Below, in pieces: positions 2,099 through 37,597 of a DNA stretch of 64,000 nucleotides. The stretch spans positions 1,957,858 through 2,021,857 of the forward strand of contig OY979724.1 in assembly GCA_963855995.1 (NCBI GenBank), read 5' to 3'. This stretch comes from Muricea muricata. Its lineage: Eukaryota; Cnidaria; Anthozoa; Malacalcyonacea; Plexauridae. The notes below the pieces were generated by a model, which worked only from the letters and a program-made list of their open reading frames with translations, was not told where the DNA came from and searched no databases. The translations under genes were made by a program, and so were the position numbers. Every line of letters starts with the position of its first letter. Positions within the stretch are counted from its first letter, which is position 1.

Positions 2099-4423
2099 AT
2101 GGCAGAGTCGCTAGCTGGAGCAGCAGCTCAGGGTATAAGCATCAATGTTTCACTGCCACTGGGTGGTGATATTTCGATCAACATCGACAGTATCAGTGCT
2201 AAATCCGTGAAAGACCTATGTGAAACTGGGCTTAAACTGGGTGCAATGTACGCCGCGTACAAGTTGATCGCGAAAGCAATCGATGGCGCTATTTCTCGAA
2301 CTCTCGGGGGCGAGCGAGATGATCAAAGGATTGGAGGCATTAAACCTGGTTCACTGCACGTCTTGTTGCACTGTTTGACGGACCAGAGACTCTTGGAAGT
2401 ACTAGAGGATTTTGAACGCGGAACGATGAAAGAACGTTTGGAAAAGGAATTTTTGAAAATTGGAATTGAAGTGGAAGGATTGAAGGTTCAAATTGACAAT
2501 ATTGAAGAAGTCAAGAAACGTAAAGAGCAAATGTAAGAAGTTTGCATAATCCATGTAAAATCACTTCAGTTTAGTGAAAGTAAATAAGGTCATAACATTT
2601 TCATTTTTTATCATCTTGTATAGTTTGAGTTCCAAAAATAATATGGCTGAAAGAGATGAAACAAGTGAAGAAGCGAAGACAAGTGAAGAAGCGAAGACAA
2701 GTGAGGTAAGCTTGTGCAAATGTGCGTACTTGTTTAACGTTCTGGCGGATTCAAATAGCCGCCGCATATTTTTTCCTGAACAGTTTGTCTAAAAAAATTA
2801 TTCTTTACTTTCAATATGAAGTTGTCTTATGATATAGCGATACATGATTCTATTTTCTTTCAGAATGAAAATGGAGACAATAAGACATTCGGTGGATATG
2901 AAGAAGAAAGATTTGAGAAGAAAGTAGATATTACTAAATTCAATTGTTCTGTTTGTCTCAAGGTCTTAAAGGACCCAGTACAATGTCCAAACGAACACTA
3001 CTTCTGTCGCTCGTGTATTCAAAGAAGTTTGCGGGACAACAAAACCTGTCCTGTGTGCAAACATACTCTGACGGAAGAAACCTTGACCAAACTACCGAGA
3101 ATTGTGAAGGAAATGTGGGAAAATCTCATGATTCGATGCGATTACGAAAACCATGGTTGTGGAGAATTGATCAAGCTTGAATTTCTGGATCGTCATGTCG
3201 GCAGCTGTGGCTATTCACCAACACGTTGCACAAACGCTGGTTGTGCTGAAGTGATAAACCAACACGAGAAAGAACAACACGAACACGAACTCTGTCAGTT
3301 TCGTAAGATCGTTTGCGACGATTGCGGAGAACAAGTGATTTGGAAGTCACGTCGTCTACACCCGTGCTTCATGCAAAAGCAAATAGACGATTTAGCGAGA
3401 AGATTGAACGTTGTTCAGAATGATGTTGGGGAAGTTAAACATGAAGTGAAGCTGACTAAAGAGGAAGTGAAGCTGACTCAAGTGGAAATGACATATCTAA
3501 CAAGAGAAGCGACTGAAAGATGTGATTTATTTACTGGCCGCCAGAAGATTTTCGTTTGTGGAGGTGACGATCGCTACACTACGTTTAATTCAGTTGAGTC
3601 CTATAGCTGGCCCGATAATTTCTGGACACTGGAACCAGCAATGAACAAGAAGCGATCATGTCATTCAGCATTTGTCCATGATCGTGAAATATATGTCGGT
3701 GGCGGATGGACTGGGACCAAGCTCACTGACAGTATCGAGATCTTGAATGTTGACGAGGAGAATTTAAAATGGAAGCCACAGTCTCCGCAATTCAAGATGC
3801 CAATCAAGTGTTCAGGACACAAGATGGTTTGTCACGAGAACAGTGTGATTCACACTGGCGGACTTACCGGGGGTGGTCATGTTTCCGATGGGATTTACGA
3901 AATCAGTCTAAATCCTCCACATAACACGAAGTTATTGGCCAAGATGCCAGAGCCAAAAAGATTCCATGGCTGTGAAATAATTGACAACCAAGTGGTAGTG
4001 GCTGGAGGAATGGCAGCAGACAGCGTCGCTAAAAACACTGTGTACGCATACGACCTCGACAACGGTGAACTTAAAACATTACCACCGCTTCCATCCCCTG
4101 TTTCTCAGATGGCTACTGTTAGTTATAAAGGTAATGTAATTTTGATCGGAGGAGTTGATGAGCATTATAAAACATTAAACACAGTCATGATATATAATGT
4201 GAAAACAGGGAAAATTAAAATGTTACCCTGTCTTAATCATAAAAGAGCTGGATGTGCAGCAGTTATCACTGGCAATGTCATAGTAGTGATGGGGGGACAT
4301 GTTTATGGAACTTGTCTCAATTCCGTCGAGTTCTTAGACTTAAGCACCAATGTATGGAGAGAACTGTCACCAATGACAACTACACGAGCGGGTCTTACTG
4401 CAGTTTTAAAACCAATTGTTTAG
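2099..4423 (+). CDS. TRADD-N-like / RING / TRAF zinc-finger / Kelch protein, copy 1
   Basis: Three exons join in phase: 2099-2532 (donor GTAAGA), 2624-2705 (donor GTAAGC) and 2864-4423 (acceptor TTTCTTTCAG), giving 691 residues. Residues about 85-135 have the length and hydrophobic/Cys/Gly pattern of the TRADD N-terminal domain (GSLHVLLHC, then LEDFERGTMKERL); this match is from memory. A C3HC4 RING follows at about 200-237, with Cys pairs at 200/203, 220/223 and 234/237 plus C213 and H217. Cys/His-rich TRAF-type zinc fingers come next, then a coiled coil with two VKLT-type heptads, and six Kelch blades from about 400, each with a GG doublet. The likely role is a cytoplasmic E3 ubiquitin ligase or adaptor; the TRAF-C/MATH domain is absent and Kelch sits in its place. 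A possible 5'UTR acceptor lies near 2051. The start is the first in-frame ATG of exon 1, and it is conserved in copy 2. A poly(A) signal is at 4558. Confidence 0.85.
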
Positions 4424-5981: not shown

Positions 5982-6777
5982 AAAACTTAAAACTTTAACG
6001 CCACTTCCATTTCCTGTTACTGAGATGGCTACTGTTACTTAAAAAAATAATGTAATTTTGATCGGAGGTGTTGATGATGATCGTAAAACATTAAACACAG
6101 TAGCAATACACGATGTCAAAACGGGGGAAACTAAAGAGTTACCTTGTCTTAATCATGAAAGAGCAGGGTGTGCAGCAGTTATCACTGGCAATGTAATAGT
6201 AGTGATGGGGGCTAAATCAGCTTTAAACTGAAATAACTTGTAAAAAAGCACGGTGAGCCCCATTTTTTATTTTCTTAAAAATTTTCTATTGACATAAGAA
6301 ATATTTTTAGCGTTTTAGAAAAAATTCTGTTGATTGAAAATTTTTTTATTCTAAGAATTCATGTTTTTCCAATTCAAAAAAAATTCAATCAACAGAATTA
6401 AAGTCGGTAAAAATATTTTGTATATCAGTAGAAAACTTTTAAGAGTATAAAAAATGGGGGTCACCGTGCTTTTTTACAAGTTATTTCAGTTTAAAGATGA
6501 TTTAGCCGCCATATTGGAACGCTATTGTTGCCATGGCAACGTAACTTAAAAATTCATACTTACCACAACTAGACTCTTGACATGTTCCTGGACTCAAGTG
6601 GACCTATTTAATTACTCCAAATAATAATTATTTGTCAGAAATATGACCTAAACTATGTATTTTTTATTTGAATGAAAATTGTACGGAGCCACCTTAAGCA
6701 CCAATGCATGGAGAGAACTGTCACCAATGACACCTAAACGAAGAGTGACTGCTGCAGTTTTAAGACCAATTTATTAG
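5982..6777 (+). pseudogene. Decayed Kelch-domain copy of the RING/Kelch gene
   Basis: Segments 5982-6209 and 6690-6777 align with the last third of the copy 1 coding exon (fifth and sixth Kelch blades and the C-terminus). Between them lies a foldback insertion, and the part of blade six from the GHVYG region to the EFLD region is missing. An in-frame TAA at 6040-6042 replaces a Tyr codon of the intact copy. The N-terminal, RING and zinc-finger parts are absent. It is a dead remnant of a third gene copy between the two larger ones. Confidence 0.8.
6210..6690. mobile_element. Foldback / MITE-like element inside the Kelch pseudogene
   Basis: Bases 6210-6507 form an almost full-length hairpin. 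The left arm starts GGCTAAATCAGCTTTAAACT and the right arm is its near-perfect reverse complement ending GATTTAGCC, with only a few mismatches over the outer 60 bases and pairing that continues inward. Bases 6508-6690 are also foreign to the Kelch gene and end in GGAGCC, so the whole insertion may be about 480 bp with a subterminal hairpin. It has no coding capacity. Confidence 0.75.
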
Positions 6778-6899
6778 ATTGACCTTATTGAACGGTATGA
6801 ACAAAAGCCAGATTATGTAACAGCACGACTGATGTAATAAGTATATTATTGAATTTATGTAGAATTTATAATATATTATACTAATTATATAATTAATCA

Positions 6900-8360
6900 A
6901 TGTTTATAAGTTAAATGTTGGAATAAAAACCTCTCAAACCTTTTAATTTTTGTGTGATTACAGGAAATGTGGGAAAATTTTCGGAAAACCTTAATCAAAT
7001 GGTCTGGACAATTCAAAACCGAATTGTGAAGACACTACCTCCTAACTTCCCGTTATTAATGAAGCCCCTCTCCTCCCACCTTTTGGAATATCATTTTACA
7101 AGCTACATTTCATTAAAAAGAACAAGAGTAAAACTCACATTTATATCTGAACACATTCATGTCATTCAGCATGATGTTTTTGCCATAGGTTTACAATTTC
7201 CCAAATTAACATTGCTTTGAAACAATTCATAACAACAAATAACATATTTCGCCAAAAACTGAATCTCTCCAAAAACATCAAAATTGATGCAATTTATTTG
7301 CACAGACACGAAACACACAATCAGCAAACACCAGGAAGCAACAAACGGTTTTTCTAATCTTAAACTAAAGCGAGAAATCCTCTTGCAACCCACACTAAAA
7401 ACTTCTGATCTTTCAAATAAGGTTCATGTCTGATCGTGTAGACTATGATGCAATACAATAATATCCACCATTAACTTCACGACGAACGGCCTTCGCTCAA
7501 GACATCCAAATTCTACCTGAAATTTTCAGCTGGTAAAAGAAACAATGCTTTTGTCTGTTTTATGGTACACCACCCACACTGGTAACTAAATTCAATAACA
7601 TGCAAGGTATACTACACAAATTCTTGTTAGAAAAGTCGCTGGATTTATTCTGTTTATAAACCTGTCAAACCTGTTTGAATCCGCACGATACTTGATACCA
7701 CATGAGGTGGTCTTGTGAAATAACAACACATCATTGCGCCATATGCATTGATATTCGTTGCGTTTGATTCAAGATTGTGGTTGCAATTATTCGGATGTTA
7801 TTAGCGCACTTTCTGCACGAAGATAAAGGTACCTTAACAATATTTTCTTTTCAATTACCTTAGGTTAACGAGTTCTTTATATAGATATATGATTTAGCAA
7901 CTCAAAATACGCAGACGATTTTTAAAGCGTGCACGGTGGGAACAATTTAGTAAGGCTAGCTCCACTACTGGCTTCAGATCTGTATGTTACTCCTCTGTTT
8001 ATAAGTTACATGTTAAAATAAAAACATCTTAAAAACCTTTCAAATTTTGTGTGATGCGAGGAAATGTGGGAAAATCTTCGGAAAACCTTAACTAAATAGT
8101 CTGAAGAATTCAAAGCCTAATTGTGAAGGCACTCCCTCCTAACCTCCACTTATTCATGGAGTTCCCATCCTCCTCTTCTCACATTTTGTAATATCATTTT
8201 ACAAGCTACGTTTCATTAAACAGAACAAGAGTAAAACTCACATTTATATCTGAACACATTCATGTCATACAGCATGGTTTTGCCATATGCTTATAATCTC
8301 CCAAACTAACATTGCTTTGAAACAATTCATAACAACAAATAACATATTTCGCCAAAAATT
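6900..8360. repeat. Tandem copies of a 350-bp segment around flank copy 2
   Basis: Bases 6900-7250 and 8000-8360 are diverged copies of each other (shared AGGAAATGTGGGAAAAT and TATCTGAACACATTCATGTC). Between them, about 7250-7990 is the second copy of the RING/Kelch upstream flank. The arrangement indicates repeated unequal exchange. No gene is supported here. Confidence 0.65.
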
Positions 8361-9368: not shown

Positions 9369-10115
9369 GATCTGCAGGATTTCCGCTACAGAATTTCTCC
9401 AAAAGCATCAAATTTGCTGCATTTCATTTGCACAGACACGAAAAATACAATTAGCAGAAATCAAGAAGCACGAAACGCTATTTTGTAATCTTAAACTAAA
9501 GCGAGAAATCCTTTTGCAACCCACACTAAAAACTTCTGATCTTTCAAATAAGGTTCATGTCTGATCGTGTAAACTATGATGATATCTACCACTAACTTCA
9601 CGACGAACGGCCTTCGCTCAAGACATCCAAATTCTGCTTGAACATGCGAGTTATACTAGACAAATTCTTTATCCTGTTTATAAACTTGTCAAACCTGTTT
9701 GAATCCGCACCAAAGTCGATACTTGATACCATTTGAGGTGGTCTTGTGATATAACAACACATCATTGTGCTATATATATATACATTGATATTCGTTGCGT
9801 TTGATTCAAGATTGTTGTTGCAATTATTCGGATGTTATTAACGCACTTTCTGCAGAAAGCTAAAGGTATCTTAACAGTACTCTATTTTAAATTACCTCAC
9901 GTTAAATATGGTTAACGAGTTCTTTATAGAGATATATTATTTAGCAACTCAAAATATGCAGACGATTTTTAAAGCGTTGCACGGGCGGGAACAATTTAGT
10001 AAGGCTAGCTCCACTACAGGCTTCAGATCTGTTACTCATCTGTTGAGTCATTGTTGTGTCGCACTGGTAGTTTGTTCCTAGCTTTTTTAACGAGTTTCGA
10101 AGAAGCAATACGCCT
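9369..10115 (+). repeat. Upstream flank of the RING/Kelch module, copy 3
   Basis: This is the third copy of the flank seen at 834-1640. A tRNA-related palindromic insertion interrupts it at its right end. Past the insertion, from about 10415, the homology to copy 1 resumes (GGTTGATGTTCACGGCTAAT) and leads into the second RING/Kelch gene. Confidence 0.7.
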
Positions 10116-10414
10116 TTCAGGTTGAAAAACTAGATTCATATTAATCGTCTGACACTGCAGAGAACAACGAAAAATTCGTTGTCTCGAGTGGGATTCGAAC
10201 TCGCATCTTCGGGTTCCTAGACCGCCGCTCTACCAATCCCAGTTGGCCCGATAGCTCAATTGGCAGAGCGGCGGTCTAGAAACCCGAAGATGCGACTTGA
10301 AATCCCGCTCGAGACAACGAATTTTTCGTTGTTCACTGAAGTGTCAGATTAATATAATTCTAGTTTTTCATATCTCTGACGATGGTTCAGAAATAGAATT
10401 AAAACCTTCGGGTT
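10116..10414. mobile_element. Palindromic tRNA-derived SINE-like insertion
   Basis: Bases 10124-10369 form a near-perfect inverted repeat with arms of about 115 bp. Each arm carries a tRNA-like head: box A (TAGCTCAATTGGCAGAGC on plus, a variant on minus) and box B (GAGTTCGAATCCCAC on minus, degraded on plus). The acceptor ends do not pair as in a real tRNA. Comparison with flank copy 1 shows the block is inserted, with similar strings (CCTTTCAGGTTGA and CCTTCGGGTTGA) at its two sides, as expected for a target-site duplication. Confidence 0.7.
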
Positions 10415-10872: not shown

Positions 10873-13300
10873 ATGGCAGAGTCGCTAGCTGGAGCAGCAG
10901 CTCAGGGTATAAGCATCAATGTTTCACTGCCAGTGGGTGGTGATATTTCGATCAACATCGACAGTATCAGTGCTACATCGGTGAAAGACCTATGTGAAAC
11001 TGGGCTTAAACTGGGTGCAATGTACGCCGCTTACAGGTTGATTGCGAAAGCAATCGATGCCGCTATTTCTCGAACTCTCGGGGGTGAGCGAGATGATCAA
11101 AGGATTGGAGGCATTAGACCTGGTTCACTGCACGTCTTGTTGCACTGTTTGACGGACCAGAGACTCTTGGAAGTACTAGAGGATTTTGAATGTGGAACGA
11201 TGAAAGAACGTTTGGAAAAGGAATTTTTGGAAATTGGAATTAAAGTGGAGGGATTAAAGGTTGAAATTGACAATATTGAAGAAGTCAAGAAACGTAAAGA
11301 GCAAATGTAAGAAGTTTGCATAATCTATGTAAAATCACTTCAGTTTAATGGAAGTAAATTAGGTTATGATAGTTTCATTTTCCTATTATATTTTATAGTT
11401 TGAGTTCCAAAAACAATACGGCTGAAAGCGATGAAACAAGTGAAGAAGCGAAGACAAGTGAGGTAAGCTCGTGCAAATGTGCGTACTTGTTCAACGTTCT
11501 GGTGGATTCAAATGGCCTCCGCATATTTTTTCCTGAAAATCTTTTCTACAAAAATTATTCTTTACTTTCAATATGAAGTTGTCTTATGATTCTATTTTCT
11601 TTCAGAATGAAAATGGAGACAATAAGAGATTCGGTGGATATGAAGAAGAAAGATTTGAGAGCAAAGTAGACACTACTAAATTCAATTGCTCTGTTTGTCT
11701 CAAGGTCTTAAAGGACCCAGTACAATGTCCTAACGAACACTACTTCTGTCGCTCGTGTATTCAAAGAAGTTTGCGGGACAACAAAACCTGTCCTATGTGC
11801 AAACATCCTCTGACGGAAGAAACCTTGACCAAACTACCGAGAATTGTGAAGGAAATGTGGGAAAATCTAATGATTCGATACGATTACGAAAACCGTGGTT
11901 GTGGAGAATTGATCAAGCTTGAATTTCTGGATCGTCATGTCAGCAGCTGTGGCTATTCACCAACACGTTGCACAAACGCTGGTTGTGCTGAAGTGATAAA
12001 CCAACACGAAAAAGAACGACACGAACACGAACTCTGTCAGTTTCGTAAGACCGTTTGCGACGATTGCGGAGAACAAGTGATTTGGAAGTCACGTCGTCTA
12101 CACCCGTGCTTCATGCGACGAGAAATGGACGATTTAGCGAAAAGGTTGAACGTTGTTCAGACTGATGTTGGGGAAATTAAACATGAAGTGAAGCTGACTA
12201 AAGAGGAAGTGAAGCTGACTAAAGAGGAAGTGAAGCTGACTCAAGAGGAAGTGAAGCTGACTAAAGAGGAAGTGAAGCTGACTAAAGAGGAAGTGAAGCT
12301 GACTCAAGAGGAAGTGAAGCTGACTAAAGAGGAAATGACATATCTAACAAGAGAAGCGACTGAAAGATGTGATTTATTTACTGGCCGCCAGAAGATTTTC
12401 GTTTGTGGTGGGTGGTCAGATAACAAGACTTTGCTTAATTCAGTAGAGTCCTATAGCTGGCCCGATAATTCCTGGACACTGGAACCATCAATGAACAAGA
12501 AGCGATCAAATCATTCAGCATTTGTCCATGATCGTGAAATATATGTCGGCGGCGGATGGACTGGGACCGAGTGCACTGACAGTATCGAGATCTTGCATGT
12601 TGACGAGAAGAATTTAAAATGGAAGCCACATGTACAGTCTCCGCAGTTCAAGATGCCAATCAAGTGCAATAAGCACAAGATGGTTTGTCACGAGAACAGT
12701 GTGATTCACACTGGCGGACGTACCGGGGGTGGTCATGTTTCCGATGGGATTTACGAAATCAGTCTAAATCCTCCACACAACACGAAGTTATTGGCCAAGA
12801 TGCCAGAGCCAAGTTGTCTCCATGGCTGTGAAATAATTGACAACCAAGTAGTAGTGGCTGGAGGAATTGCAACACAATACGCCAAGGACGCTAAAAACAC
12901 TGTGTACGCATACGACCTTAACAACGGTGAACTTAAAACTTTACCACCGCTCCCATTTCCTGTTTATGGGATGGCTACTGTTAGTTATAAAGGTAATGTA
13001 ATTTTCATCGGAGGAGTTGATGAGCATGGTATAACACTAAACACAGTCATGATATATGATGTGAAAACAGGGAAAACTAAAATGTTACCCTGTCTTGATC
13101 ATAAAAGAGCACTATGTGCAGCAATTATCACTGGCAATGTAATAGTAGTGATGGGGGGATATGATTATGAAACTGGCACTTTTCTTAATTCTGTCGAGTT
13201 CTTAGACCCCGTTCACACGATACCGGCAGAGTTTGAAAACGGTATGAAATTCTTACGTTTAGGGGTTGCGTTCACACGATGCCGGTATGAAATTGTGTGA
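10873..13300 (+). CDS. TRADD-N-like / RING / TRAF zinc-finger / Kelch protein, copy 2 (C-terminally altered)
   Basis: A close paralogue of the gene at 2099-4423 with the same structure: exons 10873-11306, 11399-11462 and 11606-13300, phases 2 and 0. The frame gives about 730 residues. Exon 2 has one TSEEAK unit fewer (18 bp) than copy 1. RING cysteines and TRAF-type zinc-finger ligands are preserved. The coiled coil has seven exact-length VKLT(K/Q)EE heptads against two in copy 1. Five Kelch blades are intact; the sixth breaks after NSVEFLD, where an inverted-repeat element (13205-13569) supplies 29 foreign residues and a stop. The ancestral C-terminus lies beyond the element and has its own 5-bp deletion. 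The open frame upstream suggests the loss is recent, so the protein may still be made with an incomplete propeller. A cryptic 5'UTR acceptor lies near 10808. Confidence 0.8.
12185..12331 (+). repeat. 21-bp coding minisatellite (seven heptads)
   Basis: Seven consecutive 21-bp units of the type GAAGTGAAGCTGACTAAAGA-g encode EVKLT(K/Q)E. The AAA/CAA variant follows the order K,K,Q,K,K,Q,K, so a 63-bp three-heptad unit has itself been duplicated. The paralogue has only two units (3443-3484). Each unit adds exactly one coiled-coil heptad, so register is preserved. Confidence 0.9.
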
Positions 13301-13569
13301 AACCGTAACGCTAACCGTAAGAGTTTGAAAACGGTATACGTACCGTAAGACTTTGAAAACGGAACGAAATTCAACCGTCAGACTACCGTGTGAACGCCTA
13401 ACCGTAAGAGTTTTATTACGGTTATGCAAAACATTTTAGCGTGCGAATTTCAATAATGAAATGAACAAAAGTTGTAAAAAGTATAACTCTACCGGTACCG
13501 TGTGAACAGTTGAAAACGTAATGATCTTTAACCGGCAGAGTTTCGTACCGGTATCGTGTGAACGGGGTC
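13205..13569. mobile_element. MITE-like inverted-repeat element in the last Kelch blade
   Basis: The termini are inverted: GACCCCGTTCACACGATACC on the left and GGTATCGTGTGAACGGGGTC on the right. Copy 1 shows the empty site. Target duplication can be read as 3 bp (TTA/TTG, which would suit a PIF/Harbinger-type element) or as 7 bp (TCTTAGA/TCTTGGA) if the element starts at the C run. Inside are several CCGTAAGAGTTTGAAAACGG-like subrepeats in both orientations. No transposase is encoded. Confidence 0.85.
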
Positions 13570-13652
13570 TTGGACTTAAGCGCCAACGTATGGAAAGAAC
13601 TGTCACCAATGACAACGAGTGGGTCTTACTGCAGTCTTAAAACCAATTGTTT
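13570..13652 (+). pseudogene. Displaced ancestral 3' coding end of RING/Kelch copy 2
   Basis: After the element the old coding sequence resumes (GACTTAAGCGCCAACGTATG) and matches the last 80 bases of the copy 1 coding region. A 5-bp deletion relative to copy 1 near 13615 breaks the frame. It can no longer be translated as the native C-terminus. Confidence 0.75.
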
Positions 13653-16919: not shown

Positions 16920-17194
16920 TCTAGCAGCGAACGTCGGTTTTGGCTGTCAGCTCGACAACTGCGTTCTAATTTAGGCATAATAAACAGGATAAAACCACAA
17001 AATTTTCGCTAAAACATCACAACCATTGGCCCCATTTTCTATCGTTCATGATAAAAGAACGAAATTTAGTAAACATTGAGCACGAGGTGAGTCTGTTGTA
17101 CGACAGCGGAATGGTAAATACATAGCAAGTACTTCCTCTTGCAGGGATATTGTGGTTACAAGTTTTCTTGTAATGGGTTTCCCGCGTTACGATA

Positions 17195-17480
17195 GAGCTA
17201 TTCAGTATAAATAAAGTTAGTTCAGCTTAGGTTTTCTCCTGTAGTATCACTGAACCAGTGACAGTTTAGAACTGATAGAGCTATCCAGTATAAATAAAGT
17301 TAGTTTAGTTTAGGTTTCCTCCTGTAGTAACACTGGATCAATAAAAGATGATCCTTACTGGACCTCTAGGAAGAACAGTTTAGAACTGATAGAGCTATTA
17401 TCCAGTATAAATCAAGTTACTTTAGTGTAGTTTCCTCACGCAGTAACACTAGATCAATAACGTACTGGACCTCCAGAAAG
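17195..17480 (-). repeat. Dispersed 115-bp repeat, two to three units
   Basis: Units in minus orientation share the strings CTATCAGTTCTAAACTG, GATCATCTCTTATTGATCCA and AAACTAACTTTATTTATA (as read on minus) with copies near 25830, 31070-31265, 32790-33150 and 54945-55450. The function is unknown. Confidence 0.75.
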
Positions 17481-17619
17481 TATAGTTCGTTTACAATCAA
17501 AACTTCAGAGAAATACAAGGTTTTACTGCTGTAGGATTTATTATCACTGAATTGAATTACAAAACAAAGTTGTATCAAGGAATAAGGATTAGGATAAATA
17601 AGCATGTTCACGAATTACT

Positions 17620-20600
17620 TTATGCGAGATTGCCGCCAAACCACCAATTTGTCGTAGCAGTCTGGTCGGCAGTACAACGGAAGTTAGGATTGACATAATG
17701 GTTGTGGCCAAAATTATCTTCTTCGTAAGTTGCGCCTTGTTTGCCATTGAACTGACATGTCAGATAATTGGTGTCTGTGTGGAGAAACAAGGAGTTTTTA
17801 GCTGCCCACCACGGTGATGTGCAACCGGAACAACTGTGGCCACGGATATTCAAGTAATCTGTCTTCTTGCATACGTTAGCCCCCAAAAATGTCATTACAT
17901 CAAAATCTGCGAATTTTCCTCTCACGTAATCGCGATAGTCGACACCATGTGTTGGAAACAGTGAACTCTAATACAACTGGAACGATAACTCCTATGTTTT
18001 CGTCCTATGATTGGATGAAGCCAAATTTGAAGCCAAAGGCGGGAGCCGCGCGGGGAAAATGGCTTGTTCGAAAGGACTGGGGAAAGTTACGAGGAGTGAA
18101 AAGTTTGTTTTTGAGCGAAAATATGCTTGAAAAATGAGAATTTTCATCACAAGACTTCAATTTTAAAGATTCGATCCTGGTTTTCTGGATAGTCCTGACT
18201 GTTCTACACTTGGTTACGGAAAAAATTGAGGGCTATCACTTTTTTACTCTGGAAAATGACGAAAGTTTCAACGTGCCGAAGCAAACTACGAGGCAAACTA
18301 CGCTCTTCAATTGAAAAATATATTGCTTTAAAACATTTCAACACCTCCAAAACGTATCTTGTGCTAAAGTCCAGGTATCGTTGTCTATTTTGAGCTTTTA
18401 GTCTTTGCTGTAGCCCTTCTAATACGTGAGTAAATTGAGGTTTTCGAAGTGGTGTATTTGTATAGTTAATTCAAAAATACGTATAAAACTTACATTTTTC
18501 GTCAGATAGCATTAGTTTTAAAGCTTTAAACTTCGGTTACGGATAGTTCTTGGCAGCCTCTTCCATCTAACTGTTAAAACTCGAGAGGTAACAGTTGTTT
18601 AAAAAAGATATTTCGTGACAAAGTTTTCGCCGAAACTGTTTTTCATTTTTAGCAGCCAAAAAATATTTTAAAACCTTACTGGACGTCCTAGAAAGTTGAG
18701 GTACATGAAATTTCAATCTATCTAGAAAATATTTAGCACCTAACTGGCTCTAAAACACGAAGTTAAAGGGTCGAAAAGAGCTTTTGAAAATAGGTCATAT
18801 TTTCGCGGCGTGACGTACATGGCGGCCTTCAATTTGGCTTCAAAGATGGCGGCCAAGTTATCGTTCCAGTTGTATTAGAGTTCACTGGTTGGAAAGCTGC
18901 AGGTCGCTCGCCAGTGGGTGGACTGGGCACTAAGGTCGTTCATCATGCTCAAACTCATTCGGTATTTGTCCCAGTTTGGTAAGCTGTCGTCTACGGGAGA
19001 ATCTACTGTAAATGGGTTTGTTCGAAATTCTCTCATGTCCTTATTTTTTCTAGCCCAAGAGATGACTAGTGTCCAGGCTTTTCCGCTCTCTGACGTCATA
19101 TCACAGTAAACAGTGACAAGGTTTGAGTTGGCGTCATAAATGTTGTAGTAGCCGTTGGTTTTTAAACCGTTTTTCAAATGACCTAAACAACTTTGTGGCT
19201 TGGAAGATGAAACCGACTATAAAAAATTAATGAAACCATTAAATTAACCAAGATCTAGATAAATACACTTAACTGAATTAAACATCGATGATGATGCTAG
19301 ATGGCCCTATTAGTTCTGCGCTGTTCTTCTTAGAAATCGAGTTAAGCCCTTCTCGTGACAATTCTGCGCTATTACATAATTACTACTGCTGGTTGTAAAC
19401 TTTTTATGCTGATAAGTTTCACGATATGACAAGAAACTAGCTTACAGGAAGATTACAGCTGTCTGTAAACAACTCGATTCTCAAGGCAGCATTCTTGTGC
19501 TAACTTCTAGGAGAAATTCTGACAAATCGTGCTGCGAATGGAGTCTTGAGATAATTTGTTACAACACTGTTGCTGTCGTTGTTGCCAATGAATACCTAAT
19601 GAAATTATTACAAACACATTAGAAAATTAGTAGATTCTATTTTGTAAAGATTTTCTCTCTAGCACTGACCGCAAATGTGTTTCTCTGTTTTCCATATTGC
19701 TTCCAATCCTCGCCATTTTTGCTATACATGATTACGTAGGACTTTGTCCACTGATTTCCAGAACAACTGCCTTGAGTAGCGACCGCTGACACGTTTGTTA
19801 GTTTACCTATATCAATTTGAATCCACGGTGAGGCGACGTCAGTCTTTGCTGGTATCCATGCGCAGTTACCGCTTTGATTTCTCAAGCGAGCATAATGTGG
19901 AAAAGAACTGGTGTCTAGTATGGATGATGACGTCATAGCTACATCTGATATCCTTCCATTTTCAATTCCCAAAGGCGTTTTGCATTTAATCACAGGAGGT
20001 TCTGGAGAAATTTAAGAAACAAAGTGTTCATGCAGTATTTTTGATAAGGGCTCAATCGATCAAGATTGGATCTGGCTCAGCGGTCTTGGTTGTTGTTAGT
20101 ATGCTTATTGATTCACTTGTCTAAATTTCGATGTTGAACTTTCAACCACAATACAAAATTTAGTTAACCAAAACACAAACTGAACGAAACAGGAATCGAT
20201 AAAATGCGTGTAATTATTATACTGGCACTTGCTCAGATAAAGCTGATACTGGCGCCAGTAAGTTTCAAAATAGACATAGTTTTCCTCAGGAAGCAGACCA
20301 AAACGTACATTTGGTAAGCTCTTTTCTAAAATTATCCTTTTTATGCCCCTATGCACCCCCTCACATGCAATTTTTATTTTTTACGGTTTTTTCTTCTAAA
20401 GTCCTTTTCTACGCAAGCACCGAACACCTACCCTGAAGGAGCTGAACATAAAAACTCCTAATTATTTCCACCTCCTTAGATTTTTCATGCCTCCATTTCA
20501 TTCACATACAAGGAACACATATGACTACTCATTTAGCTTGACTTAAATTTATATATATACCTATGCCTAAACTTAAAAATGATATCAATATATACTTTCC

Positions 20601-24139: not shown

Positions 24140-25105
24140 AGTGGGACGAAACAGAAAGAGATTTTATTGTGTTAGCAGTGGGCAGCATAACAATAGGATT
24201 AGGTCCTATTGGCCTCTCTAGATTTTCTCCCATCGCCGTCAAAAAAATTCGGCCCTTGTAGTAAAACACTTTCGGACTGTATTATGTCTTGGAACCGTCG
24301 AGTACTGGATTCACACAGAAAAAATAATTTTAAAGCTACATTAAACCTTTGCGGCGAAGTATCTCTCGAGATTTCACTGCCTCATGGGCCCCTATGTCGT
24401 TTCTCGGGTGACGCTAATTGACTGGATGCTCCTGGATAACGCCAGTTCAGGGAGGCACTTTATTACGCCACGGTGTATTAGGACGGAGGAGATAAAATCA
24501 TTGATTGATACAAAAATATTTTTAAATTTCTAGCCGATCTGACCGTGAGTAAAAGGCCTGGGACTAGCTACCAAATAGAAATCCATTTTGCTGTTGTTAA
24601 TTACTTTTATCTTTTGTTTTACTTCGTGAAATTTGTTGAAACCCAGTAACTGTCTTTAATGAAGAAAATTATAAGTCTGCCAGAAATTTAGAAACAAAGT
24701 AAATTATATTTCGTGAGAAATTTGATAATTTGGATCGAAAAATGGATTTCTATTTGAAAACTAGTGCCAGTACTTTTCCGTGGTTTCAGATCAACTGGTT
24801 ATAACAGACGATCTGTGCAATGTAAATGAAAGCGTTTATTTTTATGTTTCTCTGTCTTTAGGAAATGGACAAAATTCTTAAAATGAATAGACCAGTCCAG
24901 TTTAGTTACTTAGTTTGGAATTTATGAACTCTTAATTCGCAGCTACTGAGACTCATGCAATATCTTCTTAATTAAAAACAACAACACAAGTGATTACATA
25001 CAGAGAGGATACAAGATTTACAATCAATCAATCATGTGTAGTTGGTCATTAATCCTTAAGGGCTTTTTAATAAATTGATGAGTAAAAAGTTTTCATGTTT
25101 GCACC
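24140..25105. other. Intergenic, 3' of paralogue B
   Basis: No exon is supported. It is an AT-rich spacer between the foldback cluster and the stop codon of the minus-strand gene at 25106. Confidence 0.35.
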
Positions 25106-27625
25106 TTATGCAATGGTTCCACCAAACCACCAGTTTGTGGTCGCACTTGCATCAGCGGTACAGCGGAAATTGGAGTTAACTCTATCATAATGTCCAAAGT
25201 TGTCTTCGCTGGAGACTGCGCCTTGTGAGGGGTCGAAACCACAAGTGGTGTGGCTGCTGTCAGTGTGGAGAAAAAATTTTCGATCAACTTGCCACCATGG
25301 TATATCGCAATCGCTGCACTGATGACCACGGATATTCACATAGTCTACTCTCTTGCAAACATTGCTTCCCAGAAAATTTATCACCTTAAAATCTGCGAAT
25401 TTTCCTCTGACGTAATCAACATAGTCGACACCATGTGTTGGAAAGCTGCAGGTCGCTCGCCAGTGGGTGGACTGGGCTCTAAGGTCGTTCATCATGCTCA
25501 AACTCATTCGGTATTTGTCCCAGTTTGGTAAGCTGTCGTCTACGGGAGAATCTGTCGAAAATGGTGTTAATTGAAATTCAGTCATGTCCTTATTCCTTGT
25601 AGCCCAGGAGGTGACTAGTGTCCAGGCTTTTCCGCTCTCTGACGTCACATCGCAGTAAACAGTGACAAGGTTTGAGTTGGCGTCATAAATGTTGTAGTAG
25701 CCGTTGGTTTTTAAACCATTTTTCAAATGATCCAAGCAACTTCGTGGCTTAGAAGGTGAAACAGACTACAAAAGACAAAAAAACATTTAACGTTAACCCT
25801 TAAGTAAACTAAACTAAATTTAAGTATAATGGATGGCTCTATCAGTTCTAAACTGTTCTTCCTAGCGATCCAATAAGGATCATCTCTTTAGTGTTGCTAC
25901 AACTGGAGGAAACCTGAAGTAAACTAACTGGATAGCTCTATCAGTTCCACAATGTCACCAGCAACCTACAGAAAGATTACAGCTGTCTGTAAACAACTCG
26001 ATTCTCAAGGCAGCATTCTTGTGCCAACTTCTGGGAGAAATTCTGACAAATCGTGCTTCGAATGGAGTCTTGAAATAATTTGTTACAACACTGTTGCTGT
26101 CGTTGTTGCCAATGAATACCTAATAAAATGATTACAAACACATTAGCAAGTAAACCTTATTTTTTTAAATAATTTTCTGAGTACTTACCGTGGAACCCAG
26201 ATCTTCATACGTTTTCCAATCCTCGCCATTTTTGCTATACATGATGACGTAGGACTTTGTCCACTGATCTCCAGAACAACTGCCTTGAGTAGCGACCGCT
26301 GACACGTTTGTCACGTTACCCAAATCAATTTGGAGCCACGTTGAGTTAAGGTCAGCAGTCGTTGCAGGTATCCATGCGCAGTCCCCGTCCTCATTTCTCA
26401 AGCGAGCATAATGTGGAAAAGAACTGGTGTCTAGGATGGATGATGACGTCATAGATACATCTGATATCCTTCCAGTTTCAATTCCCAAAGAAGTTTTACA
26501 CTTAAGGACAGGAGGTTCTAGAAAAACGTAAGAAATAGAACACTTAGATTGTCTAACGGTTAGCGGAAGTTATTTAAAAGCGCGGGAAGCTGACGAAACG
26601 ATCAACCAGGGTGTCTGGTACACATCTACAATTTTTTCTTAACTTTCTTTCCCTGAAGTACAATGCGACCTGGTTTCATGCATTGCGGCCTTCACACAGA
26701 CTCACAACACTTTTTGAGAAGTTTATTTTAATCAGATGTTTTGTTGTAATCACCCACTTGCCTAGCGTGTGGAGAGTGCAGACACAGGCTAGCGTGTGCA
26801 GACACTGGTCAGGGATACATTGATGAAGTCAGCACATTCGATTACCTTGGTCTTCGTATTAGTAACACACTTTCCTGGGAATATCATGTGAACAGATTAT
26901 GTCAACGTATGTATCCCAAGTTTGGTTTACTCAATCGACTCTCCTTGTTCCTACCTTCATCTGTTTTACTCCGAATTTACAAACAAACGGTACTTCCTAT
27001 TCTGGACTATGGTTCAACTGTTTGGCACGAGTGTGGAATAACTCAAACTAAACGCGTAGAAAAGCTACGGAATCGTGCAATGAGGATCATTCTCCATCAA
27101 GGCAGACGGAAATGTACGCAAGACATGCGCAATGAGTTAAAGTTGCTAACACTGTGTAGTAGAAGACGTTTCTTAAGATTCATTTGTATCTTTAGATTAG
27201 TAAACAATATGGATTGTCCAATTCAATTAAAAGACACATTTAAATTTAGGTTTAATGTTCACCAAAGAAACTTGAGAGATAAAACATTACTTGACCTTCC
27301 AACAGTTAAATCTGCCATGGGACAGTCCACATTTAAATATGCTGCGGCTAAAGACTGGAACTCGTTGCCTTCCGAATTAAGGGACATTACATCACTCTCC
27401 CGTTTTAAACGTTCTGTTTATACTTATCTTGCAGCTATTGACAATGCATCCCACATATGTAGTATATAATTGTAAATTGTTCAGTAAATAGGATTTGTAT
27501 AGTCTGTAATTCGTTTTAGCTCAGTAACATATATGACTGTATATTCCTGTTAAAATATTCAGAAACACTGTTCTCCCATTAATACCAGCAGTATTGCTGA
27601 TGGGATAATTAACAGTATAAATAAA

Positions 27626-29370: not shown

Positions 29371-30360
29371 AATTTTGTTGATTTTTAATGATCTATAATT
29401 CTGTTGCGAAGAATGGACGCAGCATCCGTGAGCAGCGAAAATGGTGTAATATGTTTTGAAATTTCTTCTACTTCAAGATTAGCCGTTATTTTTAAAGTCT
29501 TGTGGTAAATTCAGGAAAAACGAGTTGTCTGGCTCGGTTTTTATTTCTGCAAAAAAATAGGTTTAGTTTCTAGTGACTTTTTACCTCTAAGTCAAGCCCT
29601 ATCATTTTAAAGCACGTTTCTTAAATTTCAATTTGTGCACAGGCTATCTCAGGTGACCATGAAATTTTACGGCATTATTTGGACACATTGACCACTGTCA
29701 TATCTTTTTCCACAGTGTCTTCAACACATCACTGACAGCCCAACGTCATCGGGCAAAGTATTGCCCAAGAAGATACAACCATTTCAAAAAAAAGTTGTCA
29801 ATTGTCAGAGCTATCTCGTTGAACTAAATTTGGGCTTTCTTATCAACAAGACTGCACGTACAAAGTAGATTTCTATACACAGCGTCTTTAAGGAGGAGGT
29901 GTTCTATTCACATTTTCCATGGCCCACATTTTCACAAAATCCTATTTTCACAGTGCACGAGTTCTATCGTCTCCATAACTGTCTTGCTCATATCTTAATT
30001 CCATTTTACTATTTTTCATCACTTTCTCCTGATGAATCCTAGCCTAGTGCGTAGGTTTCCATTTTCTCTGCCAAAACTGGCAATTCCTAGTTCTTTTAAC
30101 TCGTCACGTGATTCACAGTTATTACCGCTGTTCAACAAATAAACACATACGAAAATTTTATGTTATGTTTTAATCAAACTGAATGAATAGATCAATTACT
30201 GTAATGATGTTTGGATGTATGGTATCAGAAATTGAGGATCAGAAACTTTTACTACAAGCTTGCAAATTTGTTTAAAATCAGAGCAATAGTCAGTCAAGTT
30301 TAATCAATACACGTCATTACTAATCAGTTCGAGTTTTGGAGATTTTTTCGTTCTGAAATG
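29371..30360. other. Intergenic, no gene seen
   Basis: Spacer between paralogues B and C. No exon or clear element is supported. Confidence 0.35.
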
Positions 30361-32400
30361 TTATGCAATGTTTCCTCCAAACCACCAGTTTGTGGTCGCA
30401 CTTGCGTCAGCGGTACAACGGAAATTGGAATTAACTGTACTATAATATCCAAAGTTGTCTTCGCTGTAAACTGCACCTTGTGAGGGGTCGAAACCGCAAT
30501 CGGCAGAGCTGCCCTCGGTGTGGATAAAATACGCTTGATTAACTTGCCACCATGGTATATCGCAATCGCTGCACTGATGACCACGGATATTCACATATTC
30601 TACACTCTTGCAAACGTTGTTTCCCAGAAAATTTATGACGTCTAAATCTGCGAATTTTCCTCTGACGTAATCAACAAGGTCGACACCATGTGTTGGAAAG
30701 CTGCAGGTTGCTCGCCACTGGGTGGACTGGGCACTAAGGTCGTTCATCATTCTTAAACTCATTCGGTATTTGTCCCAGTTTGGTAAGCTGTCGTCTACTG
30801 GTGAATCTGTCGAAAATGGTGTTGATCGAAATTCAGCCATATCCTTATTCCTTGTAGCCCAGGAGGTGACTAGTGTCCAGGCTTTTCCGCTCTCTGACGT
30901 CATATCACAGTAAACAGTGACAAGGTTTGAGTTTGCGTCATAAATGTTGTAGTAGCCGTTGGTTTTTAAACCTTTTTTCAAATGATCTAAACAACTTCTT
31001 ACCTTGGAAGTTGAAACAGACTACAGAAGATAAAAAACATTTAAAGTTAAACCTTAAGTAAACTAAACCTTAAGTAGTTCATTCTAAAGGTGCAGTAAAA
31101 ATCATCTCTTATTGATCCAGTGTTACTACAGGAGGAAACCTAAACTGTTCTTCCTAGAAGTCCAGTAAGGATTACGTCTTATTAATCCAATGTTACTACA
31201 GAAGGAAACCTAAAGTAAACTAACTCTATTTAAACTGGATAGCTCTATCATTTCCACAGTGTCACAATCAACTTACAGAAAGACTACAGCTGTCTGTAAA
31301 CAACTCGATTCTCAATGCAGCCTTCTTGTGCCAACTTCTGGGATAAATTCTGACAAATCGTGCTTCGAAAGGAGTCTTGAGATAATTTGTTACAACACTG
31401 TTGCTGTCGTTGTTGCCAATGAATACCTAACAAAATAATTACAAACACATTAGCAAGTAGATTTTATTTTTCCAAATAATTTTCTGAGCACTGACCGTGG
31501 AACCCAGATCTTCATACGTTTTCCAATCCTCGCCATTTTTGCTATACATGATGACGTAGGACTTTGTCCACTGATCTTCAGAGCAACTGCCTTGAGTAGC
31601 GACCGCTGACACGTTTGTCACGTTACCCAAGTCAATTTGAAGCCACGTTGAGTTATGGTCAGCAGTCGTCGCAGGTATCCATACGCAGTTCCTGTTCTGA
31701 TTTCTCAAGCGAGCATAATGTGGAAAAGAACTGGTATCTAGGATGGATGATGACGTCATAGACACATCTGATATCCTTCCATTTTCAATTCCCAAAGAAG
31801 TTTTACATTTGAGGACAGGAGGTTCTGGAAAAACGTAAGAAATAAAACGCTTTAACTTTTTAACGTTTAGTGGAGGTTATTTAAGAAGCGTGGGCCCTGA
31901 AGACTAGAGTGTGCAGACACTGGCGAGGAAGGTGGAGACGAAAATTATGTATTGAAACTATACAACAATACAGTTCTTATATTTTAGTATTACATTCACC
32001 CTATCTAAAGCAAAAAAGTTTATGGCCTAAAGCCCATAGACTGCCATTGGTTTCGTGGTGCCCGACTGTGATTAAACTTTATAAAAACAAAACAATCTGT
32101 TTAGAACAATTCGAGGAACTTAACGAGCTTACCTGTTGATGGTACGATTGGAGTTGGAGTCGATACAACTTCATGGCAAAGTGTCCTGTAGGCATAACGA
32201 TATTTCTCAATGTCAGTTTCGATATCTCTACAGCAATTGCTCGGCAACCTATTCTCTGCTCCTAAACACACAGTTTGGTAAGCCGTCGTTTTGTTCTGCA
32301 ACAAAGATTCCATTTCTTCACAGCAAATGCTTTCTGCCTCGAGTGCTTTTCCTTGGTTGGCGAAAAGAACAAAAACTACAACGAATATGATCGCAAACAT
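30361..32400 (-). CDS. Discoidin + fibrinogen-like secreted protein, paralogue C
   Basis: Four exons on minus: 32133-32400, 31496-31824, 31277-31426 and 30361-31020, with the same phases as paralogue B, giving 468 residues. The signal peptide is MFAIIFVVVFVLFA. The Cys-rich mini-domain, F5/8C halves (FVRISPRSWH-type end) and fibrinogen-like end (TTNWWFGGNIA) are all present without lesions. The first exon ends in a short Pro/Thr linker (TPTPIVPST). The chosen ATG is the one aligning with paralogue B; the frame stays open upstream to 32511, so a longer N-terminus cannot be excluded. It is divergent to paralogue D, with 2.4 kb between starts. The last intron carries 115-bp repeat units (31070-31265). 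Confidence 0.88.
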
Positions 32401-32789: not shown

Positions 32790-33150
32790 TATTAGATAGT
32801 TCTATCTGTTATAGACTAGTGTTCTGCCAGCCGATCCAGTGTTACTGCAGAAAAAAAGCTAAACTAAACTAACTTTATTTATGCTGGATAACTTTTTATA
32901 ACTGTCATGCTGGATAACTGTCTTCCTAAATGTCCAGGAAGGATCATCTCTTATTGATCCAGTGTTATTACAGCACGCAGGAAACCTAAACTAAACCAAC
33001 TTTATTTATACTTGATAGCTCTATCAGTTCTCAACTGTTTTTCCTAAAGGTCCACATTGAGGATCTGTCTTATTGATCCAGTGCTAGAAAAGAAACTCTA
33101 GACTAAATTACCTCCATTTATACTAGATAGCTCTATCAGTCCAGTAAACG
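32790..33150 (+). repeat. Dispersed 115-bp repeat, about three units
   Basis: Plus-oriented diverged units (TTATTGATCCAGTGTTACTG, AAACTAACTTTATTTATGCT, GATAGCTCTATCAGTTC) of the family also at 17195, 25830, 31070 and 54945. Confidence 0.7.
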
Positions 33151-34212
33151 ATTCTTTATGTCATTTTAAATGGAAACCTAAACGAAACCAATACGATTAT
33201 GCACAACTGATATAGCAAAGCCCTTATACTTCAAAACTGATCACGCTCTTCCATTCGAGTGGGCTATGTTCTAGTTTGACCTCAGGAAACGTTGAGGGAA
33301 TGAGAAAGTATTATTAATCAACCAGAAGAATTAGTGAAATCAAATCATTAATCAGATTATAAAAGGTCGTAAGCACACAGAGCGCCAAGTACATAAAATA
33401 TAATCTGCCAAGATCGTATATTGCAATTGTAATCGTAGACTACAATTTCAACATAGCTGGGACTTCCAACTTTATAAATGACGGAAGGATAAAGGTAAAA
33501 TTAATGATTTCCCATTACCACATTTCTGGTATGTATCGTCATAAACCATAAAGTACACCCGGCACCACAGACTTTCCAAACCAAAATGTTACAATGTATT
33601 CAAAATATTTTTATTTCGATTCTGAGCGAATTTCACAACTATATATAATCAATGTGGTAAAACCTTACTTGTGGAAAAGACCGAGTATTTTACCTAGGCC
33701 AGTTATTCAAGGCTAGGTTTGCGCTAGTCCATGAAGGTTAATCAATTGTTTTAATTTGTACATTTCTACAATTTCTCTTGATTATATACAATTTCTCACT
33801 TGACTACATCTGGGTACAAGAGTAAATTAACTGATGTTGCCAATATGATAGCAAAGACGTTTTTAAAGCAATTTCAAACCATAATGCCGTGTATAAGTAC
33901 CAAATGTACATGTCTGAATTCTGAATGTACATGTTTGAATATCTAAAATATCTGGGGATAGCCTAATCGCAATTTTCTCCACTGAACAATTGGACCAGAC
34001 TGGTACTTTTGCCAGTAGCGAAGCCAGTCCGACAATTTGGTTAGGTCATGCTACGCAAGCTTAAATCATTATATCATTGTTCATCTCTTTTGAAATTGAT
34101 TCCTTGTACAGTCTATAAACACAGAAAAATTTGCCTTTTCATAACAAAGTGCACAACTTTTGCTTGCCGGCTACATTTTACTCAAATAAACAGCTGTGCG
34201 CATATAAGTAAT
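33151..34212. other. Intergenic between divergent paralogues C and D
   Basis: No exon is supported on either strand. Confidence 0.35.
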
Positions 34213-34831: not shown

Positions 34832-37597
34832 ATGTCCACTATTTTTGCGAGGAACAATGCCATTATTATAATTTACGTTTTACTTTCGCTTTTTGCTAAA
34901 TCAGAAGGCGCAAAAGCAGCCTGTTGTGAAGATATTAAGAATCTTCTCACAAACAAAACTACACAGCATACCGAACCGTGTGTTTGGGAAAGGATAGCAG
35001 GCTTTCGAGCAACTGTTGCCGAAATATCGAAGTTGAAATCGAGAAGCATCGTTTCGCTTACCAAATGCTCTGCCCTGTGAAACCACATCCAACACCAATC
35101 ATTCCAACAAGTTTGTATACTTCTTTATAAGGTCTTTAATTAGTTTTATTCAAAAGTAACGATGTACCAGCCAGTGCCTTCTTACGTCAACCATCGTGTG
35201 TGTACTTTATAGCTAGTTCAAATGGATCCATTTAATTATTATGTAAAGCCGTACACAATTTTTCGCAGACAAAGGTTTCAAGTCAGGATCTTAGGGACCA
35301 TGCAAACTTTATGTACCTAACTAGGTCAGTTCAACTAAATTTTCAAAGTTAAAAAAAACCCCAGCAAGCCCGCTTGGATTGATCGAATACTTGCTAAGAA
35401 AAAGCCTGTGCTTTGCAAAGGTGATTTTACAAGGTCACCTTTTTATGGTAAAATTATGTCCAGTTTCTCAGAGGAAAGGTTAATAAAACGCAGCTCGAAA
35501 AACTATGTTATGTCGAAAAAACTAAAATATATTTTTTATGGTGGTTTAAACACCTTCCAGAATCCGTGATCGTCCAAGCTAATTCGGGGTCTATTCACAG
35601 CTGAAGACTTACAAAATAATTTCCCTTGCTCTCTTTTAGCACCTCCATGCTATAACACTCCTTTGGGAGTTGAAAATGGAAGCATTCCACATTTCGCCAT
35701 GACGGCCTCGTCCGTTTGCGATGACAAACATTTGCCGCACTCAGGTCGTCTGAGAAATCAACTGGGCGGTTGCGCATGGATGCCCGCAGATGACGCTGAC
35801 CCCGACACAACGTGGCTTCAAGTGGATTTGGCTAATCTGACAAGCGTATCAGCAATTGCGACCCAGGGCAATTGCTTAGGCGATCAATGGACAAAGTCGT
35901 ACGTCATGATGTATAGTGAAAATGGCGTAAATTGGACAGAATATAAAGAATATGGTCGTGTCAAGGTTGGAGTATATTCAAGAGGGAAGATTTGTTTATG
36001 ATTGGGACGGAGCACCCCAATAGAGAAATCACTCATATCTAGGAGGGTGGTACCCTCGACAGAGACATTGTTTGTATCTGGTTGAGGGGAGGGGGAGTGG
36101 CAACCTCAAGTTATTTTTGTATGGGCGCTGCCCGCCACAATAAGGAAATTATTTCTATTTAGGTGTGGCACCCTTAACCCCTAACTTTATCTGGGGACGA
36201 TACGCCTATAATAGGGAAATGTTTTTCTTAACCCACTGACCGATAAAGTCAATATCTGAACGATATCTGGCTTAAATGTATTGTGAAGGACGATCATTAC
36301 AATTGCAAAAAATAACTATTCCCAATATTGTACATGCACAACGTCTTGCAAGTACACTACAATTTATCATCATGAGGATAACACAGTCCGTTCGAACATT
36401 AACTTCAACTTATTTGATTATATATATATTATGACCGTTCCATCCTCGTAACAAGATGAATCCAATCCGCCAGTTTTTGTCTGAAGTGAGTCTCGTTTTT
36501 TGACAGGTATTTGGCGGTAACAAGAATCGCAGCGGTATTGTAACCAACTATCTAAAGTCTAAAATTGTCGCTCGGTCTATCCGGATTTTGCCTAGAACAT
36601 GGCACGGGCATGCTGCCTTAAGAGTGGAGTTATACAGCTGTTATACGGTTAGTAGTGTCGGAATTCGTAGAGTATATATGCTCATATGTTCTATAGGTAT
36701 TAACCGTGTTTAAGTGGGTCTCTGTCCGTTGTTTTATAGAGGTACTTTAATAGAGAAAGACTTGCCCTACTGTCTATCCGACAAAAGGCTTTCGCTTGAA
36801 ATGTTGAATTTCAGTTTAATTTCTTAACCAGCAACTTTAATTCGAGACATTTAGAGAAATGATTGTATTAGTTATAAATCTATATAGAGAAGAAGGGTCA
36901 CACACTACAGCATATTTTTATTCGTTTTTAGTCATTTCCAAAATGGTCTTTTGTCAAACCACGAAGTTGTTTAGATCATTTGAAAAACGGTTTAAAAACC
37001 AACGGTTACTACAACATTTATGACGCCAACTCAAACCTTGTCACTGTTTACTGTGATATGACGTCAGAGAGCGGAAAAGCCTGGACACTAGTCATGTCCT
37101 GGGCTACAAGGAATAAAAACATGGTTGAGTTTCGATCGCCATTTTCGACAGATTCACCGGTAGACGAAAACCTACCAAATTGGGACAAATACCGAACGAG
37201 TTTGATCGTGATGCACGACCTTAGTGCCCAGTCCACTCACTGGCGAGCAACCTGCAGTTTTCCAACACATGGTGTCGACTATGTTGATTACGTCAGAGGA
37301 AAATTCGTAGATTTTAATGTCATAAATTATCAGGGAAATGGTGTTTGCAAGAGAGTAGAATATGTGAATATTCGTGGTCATCAGTGCAGCGATTGCGATG
37401 TACCATGGTGGCAAGATGATCAAACTTGGTCTCTCCACACTGACAGCAGTAACAACGTTTGTGGTTTCGATCCAACACAAGACGCAGTTTTGAGCGAGGA
37501 CAATTTTGGACATTATAACTACGTCAATTCAAATTTCCGTTGTACGGCTGACGCAAACGCGACAACAAACTGGTGGTTTGGTGGAAATATCGCATAA
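34832..37597 (+). pseudogene. Discoidin + fibrinogen-like secreted protein, paralogue D (frameshifted first exon)
   Basis: The only plus-strand member. Exons are 34832-about 35112 (signal peptide and mini-domain), 35640-35965, 36507-36647 and 36932-37597. The last three are open and in phase, with F5/8C (WLQVDLANLTSVSAIATQG) and fibrinogen-like (WRATCSFPTHGVDYVDY, TTNWWFGGNIA) regions intact. In exon 1, two extra bases near 34961-34970 (a CA repeat) shift the frame after the NKTT sequon. The shifted frame stops at 35080, while the alternative frame keeps the conserved CC and Pro-rich linker. It is either a recent pseudogene, an allele with a sequencing error, or a gene using another first exon. 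It is more diverged than A-C are from one another. Confidence 0.75.

Follow-up and report, generated by a model that had tools for sequence, protein, structure and literature searches.

A probable TRADD-N-superfamily E3 ubiquitin ligase from a multi-copy locus of the cnidarian Muricea muricata, with Kelch loops that differ strongly between copies

The N-terminal domain of TRADD (TRADD-N) binds the MATH (TRAF-C) domain of TRAF2. MATH has been argued not to be a universal partner of TRADD-N, and a switch model has been proposed for TRADD-N in general (Kaur et al. 2021, eLife, PMC8195603; here and below, sections of that article). According to the same source, cnidarians carry 17–168 copies of TRADD-N of the DEDD2 clade; the published fusions comprise, in the DEDD2 clade, TRIM E3 ligase domains alongside many other partners and, in the NCOA6 clade, WD40 propellers. 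Here we describe a gene at positions 2099 to 4423 of a 64,000-nucleotide stretch of Muricea muricata DNA (GenBank assembly GCA_963855995.1, contig OY979724.1, positions 1,957,858 to 2,021,857 of the forward strand; hereafter the window), the predicted protein of which carries, in this order, an exon-1 domain, a RING finger, TRAF-type zinc fingers, a heptad linker and a Kelch propeller. Judged from its sequence, the protein is probably an immune-type E3 ubiquitin ligase of the TRADD-N superfamily, with the DEDD2 clade as its likely affiliation, encoded by a multi-copy locus; we put the probability of this reading at roughly two in three. A preceding sequence-only reading of the locus had raised the possibility of a cnidarian innate-immunity design; for cnidarians this is no new principle, as TRIM E3 fusions and the large cnidarian copy numbers of DEDD2-clade TRADD-N had already been described. 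Fusions of TRADD-N to an E3 ligase and to a propeller are thus on record, and what is new is the combination of RING, TRAF-type fingers and Kelch; the word Kelch does not occur in the main text of PMC8195603.

The gene in the window (copy A) opens with the ATG at 2099, and an in-frame stop codon lies immediately 5' at 2063–2065. Its three exons are separated by GT-AG introns and, joined in frame, encode 691 residues, with the reading frame open to 4423. The three-exon model is confirmed at the level of gene prediction, and comprises the following features (copy B is the second copy in the window, described below).

2099 to 2532, forward strand: exon 1, codons 1–144 plus 2 nucleotides, ending at a phase-2 donor (AT/GTAAG)
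2324 to 2518, forward strand: putative TRADD-N-like core, residues 76–140, with the G84-S85 turn motif, assigned from the family alignment and from sub-threshold PF20694 matches of relatives
2533 to 2623, forward strand: intron 1, GT-AG, 91 nucleotides, with a TAA (2534–2536) overlapping the donor; 79 of 91 positions are identical in copy B
2624 to 2705, forward strand: exon 2, an acidic linker with 18-bp repeats; its length differs from that of copy B by 18 nucleotides (6 codons)
2706 to 2863, forward strand: intron 2, GT-AG
2864 to 4423, forward strand: exon 3, residue 173 through the stop codon
2942 to 3058, forward strand: RING finger, residues 199–237 (Pfam zf-C3HC4_2, E 5.5e-9 with the full-length protein)
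3137 to 3367, forward strand: three TRAF-type zinc fingers, residues about 264–340 (TRAF6 alignment, zf-TRAF, Sina_ZnF)
3374 to 3526, forward strand: heptad linker, a probable coiled coil with an a/d pattern and a 21-bp (7-codon) repeat at 3436–3491
3539 to 4420, forward strand: Kelch propeller, residues 398–691 (Pfam Kelch_1, E 6e-38; Kelch matches in the PDB)

A possible acceptor, TTTCTTTCAG/G, is seen at 2043–2053, hinting at a 5' non-coding exon.

The pairing of a RING with TRAF-type zinc fingers by which the TRAF family is recognized is present in the predicted protein. TRAF6 aligns with both the RING and the fingers (query residues 18–170, E 7.5e-19), and assignment of the fingers is based on this alignment and on Sina_ZnF, which barely exceeds its cut-off on the trimmed piece (E 1.4e-7, 32.2 versus 32 bits). 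The zf-TRAF model matches three stretches of the trimmed piece at E 3.1e-4, below its cut-off (21.8 versus 27 bits). In the heptad linker, position a is mostly hydrophobic (I L V V V M A) and position d is mixed (M L V V T T L); the 21-bp unit is present 2.7 times in copy A and 7.7 times in copy B (12178–12338). The C-terminal domain is the Kelch propeller. Neither MATH nor a B-box is among the best 25 Pfam matches listed (to E 1); the trimmed pieces likewise gave no B-box at E values up to 10, and neither BTB nor BACK appears among the Pfam matches listed. The sequence-only reading had likened the protein to TRADD and TRAF2 fused into one polypeptide. This is supported in part: the gene model places the domains on one chain, but in mechanism the pair is an analogy, because MATH, the partner of TRADD-N in TRAF2, is absent here.

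Two further copies repeat the succession of exon 1, RING, fingers and Kelch, each with 144 of 144 exon-1 codons open. The first of these, copy B, lies downstream in the window.

10873 to 11306, forward strand: copy B exon 1; exons and splice sites are those of copy A
11399 to 11462, forward strand: copy B exon 2, with ACG in place of the ATG of copy A
11606 to 13206, forward strand: copy B exon 3, running up to an inserted element
13204 to 13570, forward strand: probable insertion of a mobile element into the final Kelch blade of copy B; its 23-nucleotide inverted ends are 100% complementary
5984 to 6828, forward strand: degenerate Kelch fragment (5984–6211 and 6693–6828), the intervening DNA including a palindromic element at 6205–6512

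Past the inserted element, the 3' remainder of copy B is split across two frames, so that a shortened protein is expected; one finger cysteine is replaced by tyrosine. The genome searched was the 453-Mb assembly, in which the window sits on contig C9. The third copy (L003/L028) lies 21.7 kb upstream of copy A, at C9:1938238, and its exon 1 is 94% identical; RING, fingers and a full-length Kelch follow, exons 1 and 3 are open and the C-terminus is unchanged. Loci L002 and L003 both show 94% identity over all 144 exon-1 residues and are stop-free. A fourth copy, on C5, is degenerate, with a stop within exon 1 and an altered donor. Between copies A and B, 16 of 434 exon-1 positions differ, versus 52 of 639 in the introns and 3' flank (Fisher p = 0.003; the count excluded 105 aligned upstream positions, 86 of them identical). 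The ratio of non-synonymous to synonymous rates (dN/dS) for exon 1 is 0.37, with p = 0.06 for dN below dS on its own, and that for the RING and fingers is 0.53–0.57.

The region 5' of the gene is repeated at 855–1611, 7258–7999 and 9372–10125, indicating that upstream DNA was duplicated inside the array. The array also holds palindromic elements resembling miniature inverted-repeat transposable elements at 6205–6512 and 10123–10370, about 250–310 bp long and 82–84% identical to their own reverse complement.

The copies differ strongly in the predicted ligand loops of the Kelch propeller, far more than in the rest of that domain. Loops were taken as the segments between strands b and c and between strands d and a of each blade; with borders that we set from the Kelch motif and drew on copy A after viewing the A–B alignment, which makes this test post hoc, 29 of 90 loop residues are changed between copies A and B versus 9 of 176 elsewhere (p = 8e-9). 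Synonymous codon changes number 7 of 90 in the loops and 10 of 176 in the rest (p = 0.60). When the loop labels were slid round the domain, the observed number was reached in 1 of 266 shifts, the unshifted position. The dN/dS is 2.47 for the b-c loops, 0.65 for the d-a loops (which have a role in KEAP1), 1.25 for the loops combined and 0.23 for the rest of the propeller. The loop non-synonymous rate exceeds the pooled synonymous rate (p = 1.9e-5) and the non-coding rate (p = 1.3e-6), and the insertions of copy B relative to A fall within or at the edge of loops. With unchanged borders, the third copy differs from copy A at 35 of 90 loop residues versus 11 of 204 others (p = 4e-12), a comparison that reuses copy A and is therefore not independent of the first; its synonymous changes number 7 of 90 and 8 of 204 (p = 0.25), and of its five inserted positions four lie inside the loops and one outside. 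The top face of Kelch propellers frequently engages substrates, and b-c loops contact the substrate in KBTBD4 (PMC11882444). Such strong variation of predicted target-binding loops between copies points to a small family of intracellular immune ligases undergoing diversification. Loop diversification and variation in heptad length are the new observations made here.

These changes might alternatively reflect relaxed drift of decaying duplicates in a Kelch-RING protein without an immune role. In copy B the final blade and one finger cysteine are gone, propeller loops tolerate change, and the synonymous rate of the loops is itself raised (0.20). Three further points weigh against diversification: loop dN does not exceed the synonymous rate of the loops themselves (p = 0.30), the d-a loops taken alone stay below 1, and copy B may be partly drifting. 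We nevertheless regard drift as an unlikely explanation, as the excess is confined to the loops (dN/dS 0.23 in the rest of the propeller), synonymous changes show no significant bias, and the pattern persists between the two copies with an open exon 3.

Assignment of the exon-1 domain to the TRADD-N superfamily is quite probable and comes from its relatives in the same genome. Of 28 candidates, 27 are matched places at E up to 1, and 23 of these lie below 1e-5; the remaining four are short pieces adjoining other members. We inspected 27 loci of 3.1–3.4 kb plus 16 longer stretches of 9.5–9.9 kb. A 19-row alignment was built from the 27 places, excluding L003 (exon-1 protein identical to that of L002), L006 (degenerate) and L022–L027 (fragments or pieces of included loci). 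A tiny residue followed by serine, occasionally cysteine, in the β2–β3 turn is the published hallmark of TRADD-N (PMC8195603). In the 19 aligned members the turn position is occupied by serine in 13 and by cysteine in 6, and the preceding residue is glycine in 17; this G-S/C motif fits the hallmark, the turn itself being predicted here. PF20694 (TRADD-like_N) is the Pfam model matched by most family members, namely four of the 19 (L009, L017, L018 and L021, E 0.013–0.024), with control values of 7.6e-9 for TRADD and 8.7e-10 for DEDD2. By a register worked out by hand from the match coordinates, the conserved aromatic residue before x-x-G falls on profile position 51 in L009 and L017 and on 51 or 52 in L021, as in TRADD and DEDD2 (51 or 52). 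In a core profile built from the two sequences of TRADD and DEDD2, the best register in the whole window protein is residues 86–118, with a score equalled by 394 of 20,000 exon-1 shuffles, or by 17 of 50,000 at the fixed register, a post hoc choice. The cnidarian host fits the published phyletic pattern of TRADD-N.

Several results weigh against this assignment. The window protein itself matched none of PF09034, PF20694 and PF13820 in Pfam; the support comes from its relatives, the scores of which (14.9–15.8 bits) lie under the curated cut-off of 23.7, and a coiled-coil model, Osmo_CC, matches three of the 19 members (best E 0.048). Two chance reading frames of the window beat exon 1 with the core profile. 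A hidden Markov model of the 19 members fails to retrieve TRADD or DEDD2, which are equalled by 231 and 104 of 2000 shuffles, and hhalign of the family to DEDD2 gives a probability of 1.7%, though in the expected register. TRADD-N has an RRM-like β-α-β-β-α-β fold and would need strands at the stretch corresponding to residues 78–93, where the AlphaFold models (pLDDT 64 and 47, from two-row alignments) show none; these models, too weak to settle the fold, place a helix at residues 86–91. Exon 1 could accordingly be a lineage-specific domain outside TRADD-N, its turn-helix likeness convergent; the protein would then be a Kelch ligase of TRAF/TRIM-like type, with an N-terminal oligomerization or regulatory domain peculiar to it. 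We consider this improbable in view of the matches of four relatives to TRADD-like_N in a register shared with TRADD and DEDD2, the serine or cysteine at the turn in 19 of 19 members, and a genome-wide family whose neighbours, DDX60-like and NB-ARC domains among them, agree with those on record for TRADD-N. Pairwise comparisons of exon 1 with TRADD or DEDD2 were not significant, but neither was the TRADD–DEDD2 positive control. The earlier identification of residues 80–145 as TRADD-N is not fully confirmed: it draws support from the relatives and the turn motif, and finds no backing in direct or pairwise matches of the window protein.

In the 27 loci and 16 longer stretches, relatives of the RING, fingers and Kelch lie beside exon 1 at only four places (L001, L002, L003/L028 and L006/L031). 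Elsewhere, we scanned ten open reading frames (ORFs) downstream of exon-1 relatives, seven of which gave domain matches and three none. The matched domains are Ank (L029), Ras-like (L030), kinase (L032, L035), NB-ARC (L039) and DUF4559-NB-ARC-TPR (L043), together with DDX60-type PIN-like and DEAD domains in an 844-residue ORF about 3.2 kb 3' of the exon-1 relative at L033 (C3:58543900–58553700). At L035 (C8:10984000–10993900), three exon-1 relatives stand in tandem, spaced by about 2.1 kb, 5' of the kinase-like ORF. Neighbours of DEDD2-clade TRADD-N in cnidarians and brachiopods include DDX60, and STAND NTPases are listed with NCOA6-clade proteins of oysters (PMC8195603). The family is expanded, with 27 matched places; outside the RING-Kelch copies the varied partners are adjacent ORFs only. 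Such ORFs, some several kb away, are candidate partners that may belong to other genes, a further point against the reading as a whole.

At the aligned exon end, a script found a phase-2 GTRAG in eight of 21 loci (L001–L004, L007, L010–L012; two extra matches, at L006 and L013, sit elsewhere and were left uncounted). In 12 further loci (L005, L008, L009, L013–L021) another phase-2 GT was located by eye no more than a few codons away, leaving the degenerate L006 as the sole locus without one. What the loci have in common is a donor-like site rather than a stop codon, which favours splicing into downstream exons. That exon 1 forms a short gene of its own ending at the TAA overlapping the donor, with the RING-Kelch gene starting at the in-frame exon-2 ATG of copy A, is very improbable given a phase-2 GT in 20 of 21 loci, stop-less ones included, an ACG at that ATG in copy B, and two introns that join in frame. 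As a gene model, the single chain foreseen by the sequence-only reading is supported, with a TRADD-N-like domain ahead of RING, TRAF-type fingers and Kelch.

As an immune-type TRADD-N ligase, the protein might work as follows. The Kelch propeller would bind a target, perhaps a pathogen protein or an altered self protein; the heptad linker would oligomerize or cluster the chain; and the RING and fingers would transfer ubiquitin onto the target or build signalling chains. The TRADD-N-like domain could keep the chain inactive, or couple it to other TRADD-N or death-fold proteins via the conserved Ser/Cys turn, in line with the switch model put forward for TRADD-N in general (PMC8195603). What the sequences show is the domain anatomy and the loop pattern; every functional step is inferred from what is known of TRAF proteins, Kelch ligases and TRADD-N. 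More tentatively, the copies may be intracellular receptors that combine sensing, oligomerization and ubiquitination in one chain, the ligand face of the Kelch being diversified from copy to copy under selection and the stalk shifting in length by whole 7-residue units; the TRADD-N switch, dispersed across the genome as a portable phase-2 exon, might then tie the ligase to a wider TRADD-N network of DDX60-like, NB-ARC and kinase genes. If the main reading is right, it would connect two topics studied separately: the expansions of TRADD-N seen in marine invertebrates, and E3 ligases that are self-contained and bear a variable recognition domain, TRIM5 being an example. Loop diversification in a compact gene family would offer a direct, testable handle on what the proteins recognize.

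The remainder of the window holds a second local family of exons repeated in both orientations (17600–20020, 25100–26590, 30360–31890 and 35570–37600). Among the ORFs scanned, F5/8 type C (discoidin) domain matches occur within this family at 19640–20011 and 26168–26569. A dispersed repeat, built of tandem units about 115 bp long, is present at 17191–17487, 31065–31262, 32833–33156 and 54971–55450, and the ORF at 53970–54332 matches the C-terminal Ig-like domain of ENGASE1-like proteins (E 2.9e-8).

Among known systems, the cnidarian DEDD2-clade TRADD-N proteins resemble the present family in their expansion within one genome, the G-S/C turn core and varied neighbours that include an E3 ligase with a propeller. 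They differ in that sections 8 and 10–13 of PMC8195603 contain no TRAF-type RING-finger front end, which is present here. TRADD-N is usually located between two other domains (sections of PMC8195603), whereas here it would be N-terminal, with a recognized domain on one side only and no Pfam match before it. With TRAF6 and other TRAF ligases the protein shares the succession of RING, TRAF-type zinc fingers and heptad linker; TRAF ligases end in MATH/TRAF-C, where the window protein has a Kelch propeller, and it carries in addition the N-terminal exon-1 domain. TRIM ligases with a C-terminal propeller or SPRY domain have in common with it a RING, a zinc-binding middle, a heptad linker and a C-terminal recognition domain, and TRIM5-like ligases have variable recognition loops; the B-box is theirs, whereas the window protein has TRAF-type fingers instead and no B-box among the Pfam matches listed. 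Finally, the KLHL/KBTBD receptors, such as KEAP1 and KLHL20, share the Kelch propeller as presumed substrate receptor. They possess BTB/BACK and recruit a RING via CUL3, whereas the window protein, with no BTB/BACK match, bears the RING on the same chain as its propeller.
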